Positions 35,172 through 42,041 of a stretch of DNA of 43,660 bases are shown piece by piece. The notes below the pieces were generated by a model. That model ran no database searches, was not told the origin of the DNA, and saw only the letters and a list, made by a program, of their open reading frames with translations. The DNA is taken from NCBI GenBank assembly GCA_033762255.1, contig JANRLT010000052.1, positions 1 to 43,660 of the forward strand, given 5' to 3'. The stretch's first letter is position 1; the number at the start of each line of letters is the position of its first letter. Position numbers and translations under genes: made by a program. The DNA is from Pirellulales bacterium (lineage in GTDB: Bacteria; Planctomycetota; Planctomycetia; Pirellulales; JALHPA01).

Positions 35172-36092
35172 CTACATTGTGGTTACTGGCTTAATAATTG
35201 TTCGCAAGGCGCCAGCGAGCATCGGCAGAGCAAACGGCTGTGCCAGGACCGCGGCCAGCCCGGCAAGCAACAACTGTCGGCGTTCGTAATCGCGGGGAAA
35301 GTCCACGAGCGCGATGCCGGGGACGCCGGGATATGTCTGTTGATAATTAACCCAAGCGGACAAAATTGAATCCAGCGCGCCTGCTCCGCAGAGTACAACG
35401 GCCGCCGGTGTGGTCATCATAGGAGGTGTGGCATTTCCATGCGTCTGGTGGTCACTAGTGAATTGGCGCGCTTGATAACCCAGCGTGGAGATAGCTTGGC
35501 AAACACTATCGCGCAGGGAAGCCGCTCTCCCCCATACTTCGATCACTTCCAAAGGTCGATGTGAGGGCAACAAGCCCCCACTGGCCGCGGATTGTTCCCC
35601 TGAAGTGAATTCGGCGGTCAGCAAAATTTGCTCAGCGAGGCTTTGCGTTGGAAAGGGGTGCGGAAGCCGCGTCGCCCCGTTCAGTTGGTGTTTTTCGGGG
35701 GAAAAGCTCCGTTGCCGCCACCACAGCGGAAACTCGGCGCAGGGGATGCGCTGCGCTAGCGGCCAAGGGATGCCGCTACGGTTTTCGCCTTCGTGCCAGG
35801 CTGTTGTGAGATGACACCACGGGACAAGCGGCCACGCCGCGGCGATAATCCCCTGGTCCGCCCGATTTAACTCTCCGGGATAATTCTCAAACAGTAATAT
35901 CGCCGCTGGCGGTGGCAACTGGCGTCCCACCCATAACCACAGCGTGGCCAAGTCTGGGCAACAACGGACGCGGGCGGAATTGCTTATATGCGAAAGGGCG
36001 GTTTGTGCCTCGGACGCGGCGGTGGATCCCACCCAAATCAATTCCGGCGGGTGAAAATCATTGTGGTCAAAATAAGAGTTGAGGGGAATCAC
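35172..36092 (-). CDS. Receiver-like protein of unknown function
   Basis: The 306-aa protein has a C-terminal region (ALDSILSAWVNYQQTYPGVPGIALVDFPRDYERRQLLLAGLAAVLAQPFALPMLAGALRTII) whose strand-helix pattern and '-AGA--VL-KPF----L---L' ending resemble a response-regulator receiver domain. The phosphoacceptor Asp is not clear and the usual KP is QP. The first 110 residues may be a second, more distant receiver-like fold. The start is a GTG (36092) overlapping the upstream stop in GTGA, so it is translationally coupled to the EIIA-like gene. Family assignment is tentative. Confidence 0.6.
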   Translation of the reverse strand: MIPLNSYFDHNDFHPPELIWVGSTAASEAQTALSHISNSARVRCCPDLATLWLWVGRQLPPPAAILLFENYPGELNRADQGIIAAAWPLVPWCHLTTAWHEGENRSGIPWPLAQRIPCAEFPLWWRQRSFSPEKHQLNGATRLPHPFPTQSLAEQILLTAEFTSGEQSAASGGLLPSHRPLEVIEVWGRAASLRDSVCQAISTLGYQARQFTSDHQTHGNATPPMMTTPAAVVLCGAGALDSILSAWVNYQQTYPGVPGIALVDFPRDYERRQLLLAGLAAVLAQPFALPMLAGALRTIIKPVTTM

Positions 36093-36814
36093 GATGCGTC
36101 CGCCAGAAAAGTGGTTTCAGCGTCGCGGATGATAGCGAGGACGTTTTGCGGTGAATCCGCGGCGCGCAGGCCTTCCAACACGTTTGGTGCCACGATTAAG
36201 CGGCTGATGCGTGCCAGGATTTGCAGGTGGGATTTATCCTCCAGCATGCAAATCAAAAAAAACAGATCCGTGGGAATATTGCGGCTATTGCCAAAGGGGA
36301 TGCCGCTAGGCAATCGCCCCAAGGCCACAAAGGCATCCCCCAAGATATGTGTTTGCGGGCGCCGCGCGTGCAACAGCGCGACCCCCTGCTCGAGCGCGGT
36401 GCTTTGCAGTTCTTCGCGGGCCTTAAGCGCGGCGGCCAATTTATCGTTATCCCACACTAGCCCGGTGCGGGCGGCCACCGCCACAATTGCCGGAAAAACC
36501 GCGGGACGGGTGCGGGCGTCCAAATTCAGTTCAATCGCCGCTGGCAGCAGCAACTCCGATAGCGTTAATTGAGCGCCGGCAGTCTGGCTTTGCGGCCCGC
36601 GTAAGACGGTTTCCATATCAGCCAGGTCTTCGGGATTTGAGCCGCCGATTCGCTGTTCGAGCCACTGATGAATTTCTTGTTCGGAAAAACGCCATTCGCC
36701 CCGCAGTCGGCGCGCCGGAATTTGACCCCGCTCGGCGAGGCGCAGCAGTTTATCCGGCGATAAATGCAGATAATCGGCCAAACGCGACAGGTCAAATTCG
36801 GTGCCGGACATCAT
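36089..36814 (-). CDS. HTH plus PTS EIIA (PtsN-like) protein
   Basis: A 241-aa fusion. Residues 6-54 are an excisionase/MerR-type helix-turn-helix (LSRLADYLHLSPDKLLRLAERGQIPARRLRGEWRFSEQEIHQWL). Residues 84-235 are a PTS EIIA type-2 domain with phosphorylatable His149 in GVALLHARRP and LGRLPSGIPFGN. Such EIIA domains act in nitrogen-PTS-type signalling. No EI or HPr is nearby. The ATG at 36814 or the adjacent 36811 is likely; an ATG at 36847 would add 11 residues. Its stop overlaps the receiver-like gene. Confidence 0.82.
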   Translation of the reverse strand: MMSGTEFDLSRLADYLHLSPDKLLRLAERGQIPARRLRGEWRFSEQEIHQWLEQRIGGSNPEDLADMETVLRGPQSQTAGAQLTLSELLLPAAIELNLDARTRPAVFPAIVAVAARTGLVWDNDKLAAALKAREELQSTALEQGVALLHARRPQTHILGDAFVALGRLPSGIPFGNSRNIPTDLFFLICMLEDKSHLQILARISRLIVAPNVLEGLRAADSPQNVLAIIRDAETTFLADAS

Positions 36815-37044
36815 CGACCCGGGGGCAAAAGGGAAAAACACCACCATTTCCTACTGTAACGCCTGCGGGCTTTTTAAGCTAGCAAAGCTGGTCTTTTGCT
36901 AGCATGGCGCGGTCGGCGGCGTTTTATAAAAATGCCCAAAACCAGTCTTGACCCAATTGGTGAAATCTTGAAAATCCCTCCCTCAGTGGACAGATCAGCA
37001 AACCCAGTTGATCGGTCTGTTCCCACCAGGCCTGTCCGTCGGGC

Positions 37045-37051
37045 AAGGAGG
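37045..37051 (+). promoter_or_regulatory. Strong Shine-Dalgarno setting the MurE-like start
   Basis: AAGGAGG, six nt before the ATG at 37058. Most genes in this window have no recognisable ribosome-binding site, so this one strongly favours 37058 over upstream in-frame starts (TTG 36896, ATG 36932). Confidence 0.8.
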
Positions 37052-37057
37052 TCCCGC

Positions 37058-38578
37058 ATGGCACGCTCGCATAAAAAATCCCACCCAGAGATATCGCTGC
37101 GGACGTTGTTTCCGCGGGCGGGTTGGCAGCATTGCCAGGATATCGTCTGCCGCCGCGCGGTTCGTCGCCCGGCGGAGATTCGTTCCGGTGACCTGTATGC
37201 CGTCTTTGAAACCGAAGATGTCGATAGCCTGGCCGGCGCGGTGCAGGCCCGGCAGTTTGGCGCGACAGCGCTGTTGGTGGAGCAGCTTTTGCCCCTTGAT
37301 GTGCCGCAGTGCATTGTGCCCAATGTTCCCGCCGCCTATGCCCGTGTGAGGCAGGCGTTGGCCGGTGATCCGGCGGAAGTTCTCTCCCCGATCGCGGTGG
37401 TCGGTTCCCTGGGTAAGACCGTCGCCTCTTGGTTGATTTCCGGTGTCTTGGGTGAATCCGCCGTGTGTGGATTTCGCGGTACGTTGGGGTGCTCAGATGG
37501 AACCGAGTTTGTTCCGGGCGCGGGGGATGGCGACTGGCCCGCGGATACCGCCCTGTGGCTGGCCGCCTGTGTCAAGGCCAAGGCGACGCATGCGGTCATG
37601 GAGGTTCCTTTTGCGGCACTTGCCCGTCAAGAGTTGGCGGGGTTGGGTTTTTCCGCGATTTGCTTGACGAATCTGTTTCGTCACGCCGGGGAAGACCATG
37701 CCGCCTGGGCGCGCTCGCGCGAAAATTTTACCGCTATCATGAATTTTTTGCGGGCCGGCGGGACTTGTGTCGCCAATATTGATGATCCCTTCTGTCGTGA
37801 ATTGTCCCAGACTCGCGGCGTGCCAGTGTTGACGGTCGCCTTGGGGCGCACCGCGGATGTCACCGCCAGGTTGTTAGAGCGTAGTCTGGCCGAGCAAACG
37901 TTTTTGTTGACCGCCGGAGCGGAAACCGTCCCCGTGCGCACCCGGTTGACGGGGGACGCCCACCTAGAGGCCTGTCTGCTGGCCGCGGGGGTGGGGTTGT
38001 TGCGGGGGTTAAGTTTAGTGGAGATCGCGCGCGGCCTGGAAACGGTGGAGCAGATACCCGGCCGCTGGGAGCGAATCGAGGCGGGACAGCCGTTTGGCGT
38101 GTTTGTGGATGCGGCAAATAACGCCGAGTCGCTTAACTCCACGCTGGAATCGCTGCGCGGCGTGACGGCGGGACGTCTGATTACGGTCTTTGGCACCAAT
38201 GGCGGGGTTCCACTCCGGCAACGCGCCCGGATTGGCCAAACCCTGGAGGCGATGTCGGATCTGGTGGTCATGACCGATGGTTGGCACCCCACGGACGACA
38301 GCGCGGCTTTGGTGCTGGATTTGTTAAAAGGGTGCGAAAGTCTGGAGCAAGTGGTGCGCAAGCCCGATCGGGCCCATGCGATCCGCTGGGCTTTGGCCGA
38401 GGCTCGACCGGGGGATGTTGTGCTGGTCGCGGGTCCCGATAACGGGCCTTTTCCCGGTGTGGAAGGGGGTGACTTATCCCGCGATGACCGAGAGGTAATT
38501 CACAGTTGGTTGGCCGAATATAACCGACATTTTCCCCTGGTCGCAACCAATCGGCAGTCCGCCGCCAAAAATCGTTAG
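37058..38578 (+). CDS. Divergent Mur ligase (MurE-like) with altered catalytic motifs
   Basis: The 506-aa product has MurE layout: an N-domain with IRSGDLYAVFETEDVDSLAGAVQARQFGATALLV (41-74), a P-loop GSLGKT (116-121), a central domain with TNLFRHAGEDHAAWARSRENFTAIMNFL (204-231), and a C-domain with GRWERIEAGQPFGVFVDAANNAESLN (335-360). It has kept the P-loop, but the EVSSHAL His (now EVPFAAL, 182-188), the Lys after the DHLDYH region, DYAHTP (now DAANNA) and the DNPRxE motif (now DGWHPTDD) are lost. It is unlikely to add diaminopimelate or Lys as MurE does. It leads an envelope cluster. Confidence 0.8.
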   Translation: MARSHKKSHPEISLRTLFPRAGWQHCQDIVCRRAVRRPAEIRSGDLYAVFETEDVDSLAGAVQARQFGATALLVEQLLPLDVPQCIVPNVPAAYARVRQALAGDPAEVLSPIAVVGSLGKTVASWLISGVLGESAVCGFRGTLGCSDGTEFVPGAGDGDWPADTALWLAACVKAKATHAVMEVPFAALARQELAGLGFSAICLTNLFRHAGEDHAAWARSRENFTAIMNFLRAGGTCVANIDDPFCRELSQTRGVPVLTVALGRTADVTARLLERSLAEQTFLLTAGAETVPVRTRLTGDAHLEACLLAAGVGLLRGLSLVEIARGLETVEQIPGRWERIEAGQPFGVFVDAANNAESLNSTLESLRGVTAGRLITVFGTNGGVPLRQRARIGQTLEAMSDLVVMTDGWHPTDDSAALVLDLLKGCESLEQVVRKPDRAHAIRWALAEARPGDVVLVAGPDNGPFPGVEGGDLSRDDREVIHSWLAEYNRHFPLVATNRQSAAKNR

Positions 38579-38618
38579 CGGTAAATGGCAAACGCCTGAC
38601 GTACATAGGGATATTTGA

Positions 38619-39104
38619 GTGGAAAGCTGGGTGACCATCGGCGATTTGGAGTTGGCTGTGGGTGGCCGGATGCGCTGGGGGGATTTGCCTCCGCTCCGGG
38701 GTGAGCATACGCCCTTGGGAATGATTCGCGGCAAATTGTCAGAAGTCCTGCCCGGTGATGTTTATTGGCCCTGCGAGTCCTTGGGCGAACGCCCAAATTT
38801 ACTCGCGGAAGAGGCCTACACCCAGGGTGCCCTGGGGGTGGTTATTGCCGGGCGGCGGGTTGTACCCTGGGCTGGTTGCTGGTCCTTGGAGGTGGACTGC
38901 GCGGCGCGGGCGTGGCGGGATTGGCAAGGTTGGCTGGTCCGGCATGCGGCTGCAAACCTAGGAAAAGCCAACAACGCATCCACCCTATATCGATTGGATG
39001 CCGGTCACCGGGCGGAAACTTCGTTTTTTGAAGGGGAGACCGCGCGGCGCGTGGTCTGGAGCCTGGCGCGTCAGGTTGAAGAACTCAAAGAGGCTTGGGA
39101 TTGA
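38619..39104 (+). CDS. Stand-alone MurF N-terminal-domain-like protein
   Basis: The 161-aa product matches only the UDP-sugar-binding N-domain of MurF: WVTIGDLELAVGGRMRWGDLP (4-24), then RGKLSEVLPGDVYWPCESLGERPNLLAEEAYTQGALGVVIAGRRVV for 'SR-V-PGDLFVAL-G---DGH-F---A---GA--VV', and a helix at the end. The ATPase and C-terminal ligase domains are absent, and nothing downstream restores them. The start is a GTG at 38619 (or 38631), 40 nt after the MurE-like gene. It may be a regulatory or scaffold partner of that protein. Confidence 0.65.
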   Translation: MESWVTIGDLELAVGGRMRWGDLPPLRGEHTPLGMIRGKLSEVLPGDVYWPCESLGERPNLLAEEAYTQGALGVVIAGRRVVPWAGCWSLEVDCAARAWRDWQGWLVRHAAANLGKANNASTLYRLDAGHRAETSFFEGETARRVVWSLARQVEELKEAWD

Positions 39105-39315
39105 AATTTGGCCGACATGAATGCTAGCCGCCGGATGGAAATGAGGGCGGGACATTAAAAAATATATTTCGACCATGTGTGTGGATTCCGTTGCTAGCGC
39201 CAAAAGTTTGCGGGAACTTGCGGTGCTCCCCTCCCTCCTGGGTGGAAGTGCACACTGCCGTGCCAGGGTTACTGGGTCAATCCTGTCACGGCGGACTTCG
39301 CAGCGGAATCCAAGA

Positions 39316-39349
39316 CTGAGGCCGGAAAGGCTTGCCTTTCCGGCCTCAG
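39316..39349. repeat. Perfect 16-bp-arm hairpin
   Basis: Arms CTGAGGCCGGAAAGGC and its complement with a 2-nt loop. No T-run follows. Confidence 0.85.
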
Positions 39350-39363
39350 GGGACCACGGTGTC

Positions 39364-39390
39364 GGGGTGCGGCGGGCTGCGCCGCACCCC
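39364..39390. repeat. Perfect 10-bp-arm hairpin
   Basis: Arms GGGGTGCGGC and its complement around a 7-nt loop, 14 nt after the preceding hairpin. Confidence 0.8.
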
Positions 39391-39619
39391 ACAGCCGATA
39401 TCTCTTCATCAGCTTGCGGGTATTTGGACAGAGGGATCTGCGGTCTGAATTACCCGGCCGCCAAGCCGGAAAACAACCCGCCAATCCCCCTGCGGGAGAC
39501 CGATCCCTGGACGGCACTGGCCAAAATGTTCAAAATTGGTCATAACTGGGGATTACTGTTCCTCGGTTTTAGGTGTCCAACGTTCCCACATTACGCAACC
39601 ACTTTTGCCGTTATTTCGC

Positions 39620-40498
39620 ATGCCGTTGCTTACCGGTTTTGAAAAAATCGTCCGCCAGCAAGAACTGCTCGCCCCGCATACGTGGTTTGGGTTAGGCGGA
39701 AATGCGGAATTTTTCGCCGAACCAAATTCACTCGAGGAATTAGCCGCACTGGTGCGCCGTGCCCAGGATGAGCAACTTCCGGTCCGAATTCTGGGGGGCG
39801 GGTCAAACATTCTTGTCCGTGATGAAGGGGTAAAGGGAGTCGTGGTGCGGCTTTCGGCCCCCGCTTTTTTACAATTGCGCGCATTCAAACATGGCGTTTC
39901 GGCGGGTGGGGGGGTAAAGCTGGGGCAACTCATCTCACTGGCGGTGCGCGAGGGCTTTGGCGGATTGGAATCGCTGGTGGGAATACCCGGCACGGTGGGA
40001 GGGGCTTTGCATGGCAATGCGGGGGGGCAATCGGGCGATATTGGCCAATTTACCCAACGCGCCACGGTTTTGACCCGCCGGGGGGAGATTTTAGTTCGTG
40101 AACGAAAGGACTTGGTGTTTGCCTCGCGCCAAAGCAGCCTCGACGAACTGGTGATCCTGGATGCTGAATTTGTCATGGAGCGAGAAAATCCCGAAGAACT
40201 TACCAAGCGGATGCAAAAACAGTGGATCATGAAAAAAGCGGTCCAACCGATGGGCCATCAAAACACCGGTCAGATCTTTAAGAATCCCCGCGGGGTGGAT
40301 GCCGGGCAATTGATCGAACAAGCCGGCTTAAAGGGAGCCCGCGTGGGAAATGTCGAGGTCAATGACCGCCACGCCAATTTTTTTGTCGCGGAGCCAGCGG
40401 CCACCACGGCCGAGGTATTGCGTTTAATCGATTTTGTGCGGGATAAGGTGCTGGAAAGAGTGGGGGTCGAGTTGGAATTGGAAATTGAAATTTGGTAA
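39620..40498 (+). CDS. murB: UDP-N-acetylenolpyruvoylglucosamine reductase MurB
   Basis: FAD enzyme that reduces UDP-GlcNAc-enolpyruvate to UDP-MurNAc in peptidoglycan synthesis. Motifs are NTWFGLGG-like HTWFGLGGNAEFFAEP (20-35), FAD-binding ILGGGSNILV (57-66), GIPGTVGGALHGNAGG (121-136), ASRQSSLD (the 'YR-S' region) and FKNPRGVDAGQLIEQAGLKG (220-239). At 292 aa it is the shorter form. The proton-donor Ser/Cys before FKNP (GSFFKNP in E. coli) is Gln218. The ATG at 39620 begins at the family start. Confidence 0.92.
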   Translation: MPLLTGFEKIVRQQELLAPHTWFGLGGNAEFFAEPNSLEELAALVRRAQDEQLPVRILGGGSNILVRDEGVKGVVVRLSAPAFLQLRAFKHGVSAGGGVKLGQLISLAVREGFGGLESLVGIPGTVGGALHGNAGGQSGDIGQFTQRATVLTRRGEILVRERKDLVFASRQSSLDELVILDAEFVMERENPEELTKRMQKQWIMKKAVQPMGHQNTGQIFKNPRGVDAGQLIEQAGLKGARVGNVEVNDRHANFFVAEPAATTAEVLRLIDFVRDKVLERVGVELELEIEIW

Positions 40499-40528
40499 CG
40501 GCGGACACTGGCAACTTTTGGGCGGCGC

Positions 40529-40535
40529 AAGGAGG
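40529..40535 (+). promoter_or_regulatory. Shine-Dalgarno setting a TTG start
   Basis: AAGGAGG with a 6-nt spacer before TTG 40542, the same motif and spacing as for the MurE-like gene. It decides the start of the FtsQ-like gene, for which no ATG is in frame near the membrane helix. Confidence 0.75.
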
Positions 40536-40541
40536 CGGGCC

Positions 40542-41462
40542 TTGGCAAAAGCAAAAATAACAAATTCAGATCCACCGCCCGCTGGCCCAGGTATCCTTTC
40601 CCGCGCGAAAGGTTGGTTGTCCGCCAGTGGCGGAACGCTGTTGGTGTTTCTGTTGGCGGGTGGTGCGGTTTGGGCCTTGTGGCAAAATGTGCGGCACTCT
40701 GTGCTGGCCAGGCAAGATTACTTGCTAGAACCGCGGGAAGTGCGGATTACCCCCCTGCCCCCCTGGATTCGGACCGATATCAAGTCCGAGGCGCTGCGCG
40801 CGGCGAGTTTGGACCCCCCGCTGTCCCTCTTGGACGAAAAATTGCCGCAACGACTCGAACGGGCGTTGGCGTTACATCCTTGGGTGGAACGGGTGAATCG
40901 GGTGCAGTTGCGTTATCCAGCGGCGGTGGAAATTGAGCTGATCTACCGCCAACCCGTGGCCATGCTGGAGGTGTCAGAGGGCTTGTTGCCTGTGGATAAA
41001 AATTGCGTTATTTTGCCCACCGCCGATTTTACGCCGCTGGACACCAAAAATTATCTGCGGTTAGCCGGATTACCCTTTACCCAAACGGTGACCGCCGGCA
41101 GTGTCTGGAACGAGCCGTTGGCCAAAAGCGCGGTGCAACTAGCCGTCCGCTTGCAAGATGTGCGAATACCCGCCAAACTAAGCAAAATATCCTGGGTGCC
41201 GGCCCCCCATGCGGCGCGCGATTGGGAGCGGCAGTTCGTTCTGGAGACCCAAACGGGCAAACAACTTATTTGGGGCGAGCCAATCGGCCGCGAGCAACCA
41301 GGTGAACCGGATGCCACGGCTAAACTGGCGGCACTGCAAAAAATCCTCTCCGCTCCGGCGGGATTAGAGGGACTGCTGGAGCTAATGAATTTGGACCTGA
41401 GCCAACCCCAAAACTGGCCCGCGGAGCTGCGCCTGTCCACTAATTCCCGTCGCCTGCCTTAA
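40542..41462 (+). CDS. ftsQ: FtsQ-like cell-division/POTRA protein
   Basis: The 306-aa protein has a short basic cytoplasmic tail, one transmembrane helix (about 29-47, GGTLLVFLLAGGAVWALW), and a POTRA-like region (70-140) with LDEKLPQRLERALALHPWVERVNRVQLRYPAAVEIELIYRQPVAMLEV, the FtsQ/DivIB pattern 'L---HPWV---V-R--P--L-I-----P-A'. Its place directly after murB is the classical one. The start is TTG 40542, set by a consensus ribosome-binding site. Overall similarity is moderate, as is usual for FtsQ. Confidence 0.75.
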   Translation: MAKAKITNSDPPPAGPGILSRAKGWLSASGGTLLVFLLAGGAVWALWQNVRHSVLARQDYLLEPREVRITPLPPWIRTDIKSEALRAASLDPPLSLLDEKLPQRLERALALHPWVERVNRVQLRYPAAVEIELIYRQPVAMLEVSEGLLPVDKNCVILPTADFTPLDTKNYLRLAGLPFTQTVTAGSVWNEPLAKSAVQLAVRLQDVRIPAKLSKISWVPAPHAARDWERQFVLETQTGKQLIWGEPIGREQPGEPDATAKLAALQKILSAPAGLEGLLELMNLDLSQPQNWPAELRLSTNSRRLP

Positions 41463-41507: not shown

Positions 41508-42041
41508 ATGTCCGTAGATACCTCTCCACGCAATCCCACCCCCCAATACCAGCCGATCCTGCATGTCGCGCTGTACCATCCCGAGATCCCCTACAACACG
41601 GGTAATATCGGCCGGAGTTGCGTGGCCGTGGGGGCCAAGCTGTGGTTGATCGAACCGCTGGGATTTCAGATCAATGACTATTACTTGCGCCGCGCGGGAT
41701 TGGATTATTGGGAACTGCTAGAGTGGGAAATCGTCCCCTCGTGGGAGGCCTTGGTCCAAAAACTGCCTGCCGCTCGATATTGGCTGCTAACCAAATATGG
41801 CACGCGGCATTATACAGAAGTTAGCTACCAGCCGGGGGACGTGCTAGTCTTTGGTAGCGAATCCAGTGGTTTGCCCCCGGAACTGGTGCGGGAACGCGCG
41901 GACAGCGCCTTGCGTATTCCCATGCGGCCAGAGATGCGCAGCCTGAACCTTAGCAACACCGCCGCCATATTGATGTACGAAGCGCTCCGCCAGTGGTCGG
42001 TGGAGGATACGGACAGCCTGCCGCGAATGGGGATTCGCTGA
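41508..42041 (+). CDS. trmL: tRNA (cytidine(34)-2'-O)-methyltransferase TrmL
   Basis: SPOUT methyltransferase acting on the wobble base of tRNA-Leu. Motifs are HVALYHPEIPYNTGNIGRSCVAVGAKLWLIEPLGF (19-53), VFGSESSGLPPELV (113-126, SAM knot) and IPMRPEMRSLNLSNTAAILMYEALRQW (137-163). At 177 aa it has slightly above normal length owing to a short N-terminal extension. It follows the envelope cluster by 45 nt. Confidence 0.94.
   Translation: MSVDTSPRNPTPQYQPILHVALYHPEIPYNTGNIGRSCVAVGAKLWLIEPLGFQINDYYLRRAGLDYWELLEWEIVPSWEALVQKLPAARYWLLTKYGTRHYTEVSYQPGDVLVFGSESSGLPPELVRERADSALRIPMRPEMRSLNLSNTAAILMYEALRQWSVEDTDSLPRMGIR

Follow-up and report, generated by a model that had tools for sequence, protein, structure and literature searches.

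What does a planctomycete retain in a locus where a gene for a divergent MurE-like ligase is followed by a piece of MurF, by murB and by an ftsQ-like gene? The window, i.e., the whole stretch of 43,660 nucleotides that we analyzed, is contig C52 of a genome (G000) of the order Pirellulales (assembly of 5.47 Mb in 72 contigs, 96.6% complete). The original prediction viewed the first two genes as a remodelled Mur ligase pair of planctomycetes, possibly regulating or modifying peptidoglycan precursors. The order of the four genes on the plus strand and their coordinates were confirmed, and murB and the ftsQ-like gene were found to be real based on NCBIfam and synteny. The features of the locus are the following:

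36089..36847, minus strand: gene with HTH_17 and PTS EIIA type 2 domains (Pfam, synteny), divergent neighbor of murE
37058..38578, plus strand: MurE-like protein, 506 aa from the ATG at 37058 (Pfam/NCBIfam, motif alignment, model)
38619..39104, plus strand: N-terminal (UDP-sugar binding) domain of MurF only, 161 aa, GTG start (similarity to the MurF of G033)
39105..39619: gap of 515 bp without recognizable mur remnant (six-frame comparison, synteny)
39316..39349: perfect 16-bp inverted repeat; another GC-rich hairpin follows at ~39364-39390
39620..40498, plus strand: murB (NCBIfam PRK13905, 275 bits)
40434..41462, plus strand: ORF of the ftsQ-like gene, whose true start lies inside the ORF (weak NCBIfam FtsQ match; same position as the ftsQ of full clusters)
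41508-42041, plus strand: SpoU-type methylase

The MurE-like ORF, for which the ATG at 37058 is the preferred start, matched Mur_ligase_M (1.4e-12) and Mur_ligase_C (2.4e-19), and these are the sole Pfam domains in 36896-38575. A cyanophycin synthetase was considered and rejected: no N-terminal ATP-grasp domain was found next to these two domains. The protein scored 161.5 bits on the murE model TIGR01085, which is under the curated cut-off of 257.3 bits. The P-loop had been predicted to be the only key motif to survive, which slightly overstates the loss. The Lys and Thr of GxxGK(T/S) are indeed present (GSLGKT in place of GTNGKT), but the protein also retains the Glu of MEV, the N-x-DD-P motif, PGR and the Asp of VD. 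In contrast, the carbamyl-Lys (replaced by Phe), SSH, YAH, GDRD/KRP, DNPR (DGWHP at this position) and GKGHE (GPDNG at this position) are lost. Of the 26 aligned rows that represent walled genomes, 24 have a Lys at the carbamylated position; the exceptions, G002 and G028, are other Mur ligases. The protein is divergent, as originally proposed. A Lys-type rather than DAP-type MurE was rejected as the sole cause of these losses, because the lost carbamyl-Lys, SSH and YAH do not choose the amino acid. Judging from its residues, the MurE of G000 is very unlikely to be catalytically active.

Despite the loss of these motifs, the predicted structure is intact. The AlphaFold2 model (24 sequences; pLDDT 88, pTM 0.87) presents the three-domain Mur ligase fold of the MurE type. 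VIA-align ranked bacterial MurE first (T. maritima 4bub, Z 38.1, rmsd 2.9 over 468; 2xja, Z 37.4) with PAP11 at Z 34.4, and Foldseek ranked PAP11, as present in the plastid RNA polymerase structure 8r6s, at the top, followed by bacterial MurEs. We do not interpret these rankings as a preference for PAP11 or bacterial MurE; both indicate that the model has a complete MurE fold. The protein shares with the MurE ligases (TIGR01085; PDB 1e8c, 2wtz, 4bub) this fold, its locus in walled relatives, the P-loop and the ATP/Mg residues. It differs from a UDP-MurNAc-L-Ala-D-Glu:meso-DAP ligase by the lack of the carbamyl-Lys, SSH, YAH, DNPR and GKGHE and of the surrounding pathway.

We then searched the whole genome of G000 for the other peptidoglycan genes. 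Three Mur_ligase_M proteins were found: the MurE-like protein, FolC and a cyanophycin synthetase-like protein (963 aa; contig C44, L001). MurC, MurD, a second MurE and a full MurF were not found in the genome, nor was any PF00905 transpeptidase (PBP), and MraY and MurG yielded weak partial matches only, far below the cut-off. The incompleteness of the assembly (~3%) probably does not account for this many simultaneous absences, and the sequence runs uninterrupted across the gap in the cluster. It had been reasoned that, if no other murE or murF existed in the genome, the two genes would have to be the working copies. Our search revealed no others, but the rest of the pathway is absent too, and this deduction does not stand. 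One could still propose that G000 has an unusual, reduced peptidoglycan pathway in which these two genes function as murE and murF, considering that they are the only copies in the genome and that peptidoglycan was reported in R. baltica (PMC4432640). This is very improbable, since MurC, MurD, MraY, MurG and PBP were not found and since the catalytic residues of MurE, the ATPase domain of MurF and the catalytic residue of MurB are all absent. As for the proposed regulation or modification of peptidoglycan precursors, with the pathway genes absent there is no precursor that G000 can be seen to make.

The gene following MurE encodes, as anticipated, the N-terminal domain of MurF alone. ORF 38619-39104 is similar to the MurF found after murE in G033 (3.3e-19; 41% identity over residues 5-114) and this homology ends where the ATPase domain would start. 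The ORF shares its N-terminal domain and the gene order with MurF, the UDP-MurNAc-tripeptide:D-Ala-D-Ala ligase, but the central ATPase and C-terminal domains are missing and the DSR motif (UDP-sugar) is replaced by GKL. The homology search with its tail of ~48 aa revealed no known relation; a BLAST hint that this tail might be a piece of the MurE C-terminus was rejected, as the HMM of MurE C-termini scored no better than with shuffles. Modeled without alignment, the 161-aa ORF presented a pLDDT of 32, too low for a fold to be assigned. Up to residue 114, the MurF fragment is similar in codon-position composition to other genes of the window, as is the MurE gene. The codon-position identities of the fragment relative to G033 (0.57, 0.62 and 0.32) point to constraint during most of the history that the two share, without dating the truncation. 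We interpret the ORF as a leftover, possibly still produced, rather than as an established component. Six-frame comparison revealed no remnant of murF, mraY, murG or murC in the 515-bp gap preceding murB. Two very stable GC-rich hairpins (39316-39390; RNA fold z = -5.7) are located in this gap of missing mur genes and form a single-copy element in the window, possibly a terminator or a repeat element tied to the deletion.

The comparison with related genomes reveals what the locus derives from. In walled relatives, the genes are ordered murE-murF-mraY-murG-murC-murB-(ddl)-ftsQ (G014, G019, G020, G035, G036, G037, G044, G051 and G054), and a divergently oriented EIIA gene frequently flanks murE. 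The HTH_17/EIIA gene was observed beside or divergent from murE in many Pirellulales, whether the wall genes are present or absent, and a shared promoter or a functional link with murE is possible. The leftovers of the PBP-lacking genomes are murE-murB-ftsQ, murE-murG, murE-murF or murE alone. G000 is of the murE-murB-ftsQ type and additionally retains the MurF N-domain. murB adjoins MurE in G000, G008, G013, G025, G039, G041, G048 and G050, and other genomes carry it at a different site. The locus is a collapsed wall cluster and the two genes are not a working Mur pair. The remodelling inferred by the original prediction is real, but it represents the remains of a lost pathway and not a module that modifies precursors.

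Conservation of the pair next to murB had been proposed as a check. MurE was found throughout the order, but the MurE-MurF pair is rare in PBP-lacking genomes: it was found in G010, G017, G026 and G286 (L228 for the latter), and a MurF lies at the start of a contig in G009. The MurFs of G026, G017, G010 and G009 (L066, L057, L050 and L094) are full-length, with an altered P-loop or carbamyl-Lys, and could represent an intermediate state preceding the truncation that occurred in the window. These data bear on the idea of a functional complex between the MurE-like protein and the MurF N-domain, possibly sensing UDP-sugars. MurE and MurF adjoin and can form one complex (PDB 8f5d), motif-poor MurFs of full length are found beside MurE in G010, G017 and G026, and the codon-position identities of the fragment indicate past constraint. 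Yet the N-domain-only form was seen in G000 alone among the Pirellulales genomes compared, most PBP-lacking genomes have no MurF beside MurE, the DSR of the fragment became GKL, and the DSR Ser was also lost in 83% of the PBP-lacking MurEs, all of which make such a complex quite unlikely.

We further analyzed the distribution of MurE across 297 Pirellulales genomes, each at least 90% complete, using a threshold of E < 1e-40. PF00905 was detected in 33 of them, a few of these matches being weak, and a MurE homologue in 289. The eight genomes without MurE homologue (G009, G042, G049, G060, G167, G175, G257 and G284) all lack PF00905; MurE was thus kept in 256 of the 264 PBP-lacking genomes. Thirty-three single-contig genomes were found to encode one clear MurE homologue each, in addition to FolC and to a small number of further Mur_ligase_M matches. 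Genomes with and without PF00905 coexist within the GTDB families f2, f3, f13, f17 and f18, and the MurB tree requires eight changes of wall state, three of which are forced by well-supported branches. Based on these mixed-state families and these eight changes, the wall genes are inferred to have been lost repeatedly, assuming no regain. G017, sister to the walled G033, has lost few motifs, a pattern that appears as expected of a recent loss. A murE-murG pair was observed in PBP-lacking genomes of families f2, f3, f6 and f7 without true MraY (L044, L047, L048, L064, L077, L083, L085 and L093); in MurGs without MraY, the glycine-rich motif is altered in G003, G007, G024, G038 and G047 and unaltered in G006 and G045. 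An apparently decayed MraY in G046 was discarded because it is a contig end.

To determine which residues were kept, we aligned 24 MurEs from PBP-containing genomes with 64 from PBP-lacking genomes (numbering of the G033 protein), leaving out G002 and G028. We compared the 136 columns that are near-invariant in the first set. The best-kept columns in the 64 PBP-lacking MurEs include the P-loop (Gly157, 100%; Gly160, 95%; Lys161, 89%; Thr162, 84%) as well as Glu224 (91%), Asp393 (88%), Asp284 (84%) and Arg378 (83%). At the other extreme, His228 of SSH was kept in none of the 64 proteins, followed by Lys430 (9%), the Arg453 of DNPR (11%), His504 (11%), the His396 of YAH (12%), the Ser78 of DSR (17%) and the Glu505 of GKGHE (20%); the carbamyl-Lys (266) was kept in 36% (23/64). 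The residues were assigned to an ATP/Mg group and a ligation/substrate group from general knowledge of Mur ligases, with the exception of DNPR. The role of DNPR was checked in the literature (PMC3681970). Mean retention was 0.88 for the ATP/Mg group (9 columns), 0.17 for the ligation/substrate group (13) and 0.59 for the others (114). Both groups differ from the other columns (P = 7e-5 and P = 1e-7, respectively; rank tests). As the grouping was fixed after the ranked retention list was seen, these P values are descriptive; related genomes are also not independent. The loss is therefore selective, with retention of the ATP site. Exceptions exist in both directions: the carbamyl-Lys, DNPR and GKGHE were all kept in three PBP-lacking genomes (G017, G026 and G248), and the P-loop was also lost in a few lineages (G027, G040, G053, G073 and G077). 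In the R. baltica-like G244, for which no PF00905 was found, the positions of the carbamyl-Lys, the DNPR Arg and the GKGHE Glu are occupied by Ile, Asp and Arg. In the R. baltica-like G244 (L216) and G293 (L230), the MurE ORF was also observed to carry ~150 additional N-terminal amino acids, with no Pfam match (checked in G244), which may reflect a wrong start or a real extension.

This pattern could be compatible with a ligase that has adopted a new substrate, where ATP-dependent formation of the amide bond would be kept and the acceptor and amino acid changed. The ATP/Mg residues are indeed the best kept, enzymes that perform other amide ligations share the Mur ligase fold (cyanophycin synthetase, FolC and MurT were among the matches obtained) and the carbamyl-Lys is still present in 23 of the 64 proteins. 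However, this Lys is absent in the remaining 64%, including G000, the SSH His was lost in 64/64, and the YAH His and the KRP Lys in ~90%. Moreover, a single new substrate predicts a single new consensus, but the replacements present none across families. We consider a change of substrate unlikely.

We next estimated the selection acting on MurE. Pairwise dN/dS ranged from 0.027 (G015/G031) to 0.39 among related PBP-lacking genomes and from 0.05 to 0.12 in walled pairs, although several dS values are saturated and these ratios are rough. Third codon positions differ more than first and second positions in every pair. The MurE family is under relaxed but real purifying selection. Relative to G033, the codon-position identities of the MurE of G000 (0.52, 0.59 and 0.35) likewise point to constraint during most of their common history. 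No close relative of G000 with the MurE gene was found (the same-family G001, 73% complete, yielded no match) and the case for selection on G000's own MurE consequently rests on the wider family and on this codon-position pattern. A decaying remnant of a recent loss, with no present function, would account for dN/dS values above those of walled relatives, for the graded loss of motifs and for the truncation of the adjoining murF. But dN/dS is well under 1, the ATP-site residues were preferentially kept, homologues persist in 256 of 264 PBP-lacking genomes, and the 64 ORFs examined are mostly ~500 codons long. Decay is improbable, and it is largely excluded for the MurE family as a whole. Low dN/dS, an intact predicted fold and the disappearance of the ligation residues together argue that selection maintains the family, though not in its role as MurE.

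MurB was likewise retained, mostly without its catalytic residue. PF02873 (MurB) was detected in 54 of 57 relatives. The catalytic Cys/Ser of MurB is the proton donor; this position is a Cys in all 21 walled genomes and in 11 of 33 wall-less genomes, and it is replaced by Gln in G000. Across the 33 wall-less MurBs, 124 near-invariant columns were kept at 84% on average. MurB thus keeps its FAD-binding core and tends to lose the proton donor.

Overall, we favor as the likely interpretation that the locus is a collapsed wall cluster whose MurE was kept by selection as a non-ligating, probably ATP/Mg-binding, structural or regulatory partner elsewhere. One or several deletions would have eliminated mraY, murG, murC and the ATPase domain of murF, so that murE and the MurF N-domain came to adjoin murB and ftsQ. 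The MurE that remains would no longer be a UDP-MurNAc-tripeptide synthetase; it would most likely bind ATP and Mg and could act as a scaffold or regulator in another complex, as does the plant MurE-like protein PAP11, a subunit at the periphery of the plastid RNA polymerase (PMC12681378). PAP11 is the closest parallel, since it too is a MurE retained for another function where no complete peptidoglycan pathway is present, but it retains many catalytic residues, and DNPR in most plants (PMC12681378), whereas the planctomycete protein retains fewer. The two are of independent origin. More tentatively, once the wall had been lost repeatedly in Pirellulales, MurE, together with the altered FAD-binding MurB, might have become a core, ATP-responsive and non-enzymatic part of another machine, an independent bacterial counterpart of PAP11; we regard this as possible, at somewhat less than even chances.

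The presence and absence of mur genes observed here match published patterns. In the available text of two surveys, murA, murC, murD, murF, murG, murJ and ftsW are described as lost in Pirellulales, murB as conserved throughout the superphylum (PMC12283558), and murE as "semi-conserved" in Planctomycetia (PMC10632474); the same loss, with murB and partly murE kept, extends over Pirellulales, Gemmatales and Isosphaerales. Within that text, these surveys count genes and do not address the catalytic capacity of the retained proteins. The loss of mur genes with retention of murB and partly murE was thus already known. No report of lost catalysis in these retained Mur proteins was found in the open-access literature that was searched.

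These results bear on the disputed peptidoglycan of Pirellulales, for which the chemistry of R. baltica and gene-loss surveys (PMC12283558) disagree. A 2015 study found peptidoglycan sugars and DAP in R. baltica, a member of Pirellulales, and argued that all species analyzed harbor essential peptidoglycan synthesis genes (PMC4432640). If the remaining homologues, MurE and MurB, are devoid of their catalytic residues, finding a mur gene in Pirellulales is not evidence of a wall, and the question would become testable protein by protein. Our results suggest that MurE was retained in G000, and throughout the order, for a different job. If MurE is indeed selected without catalysis in hundreds of species, this would constitute a natural experiment in the conversion of a biosynthetic enzyme into a structural or regulatory protein, parallel to the one that occurred in plastids.
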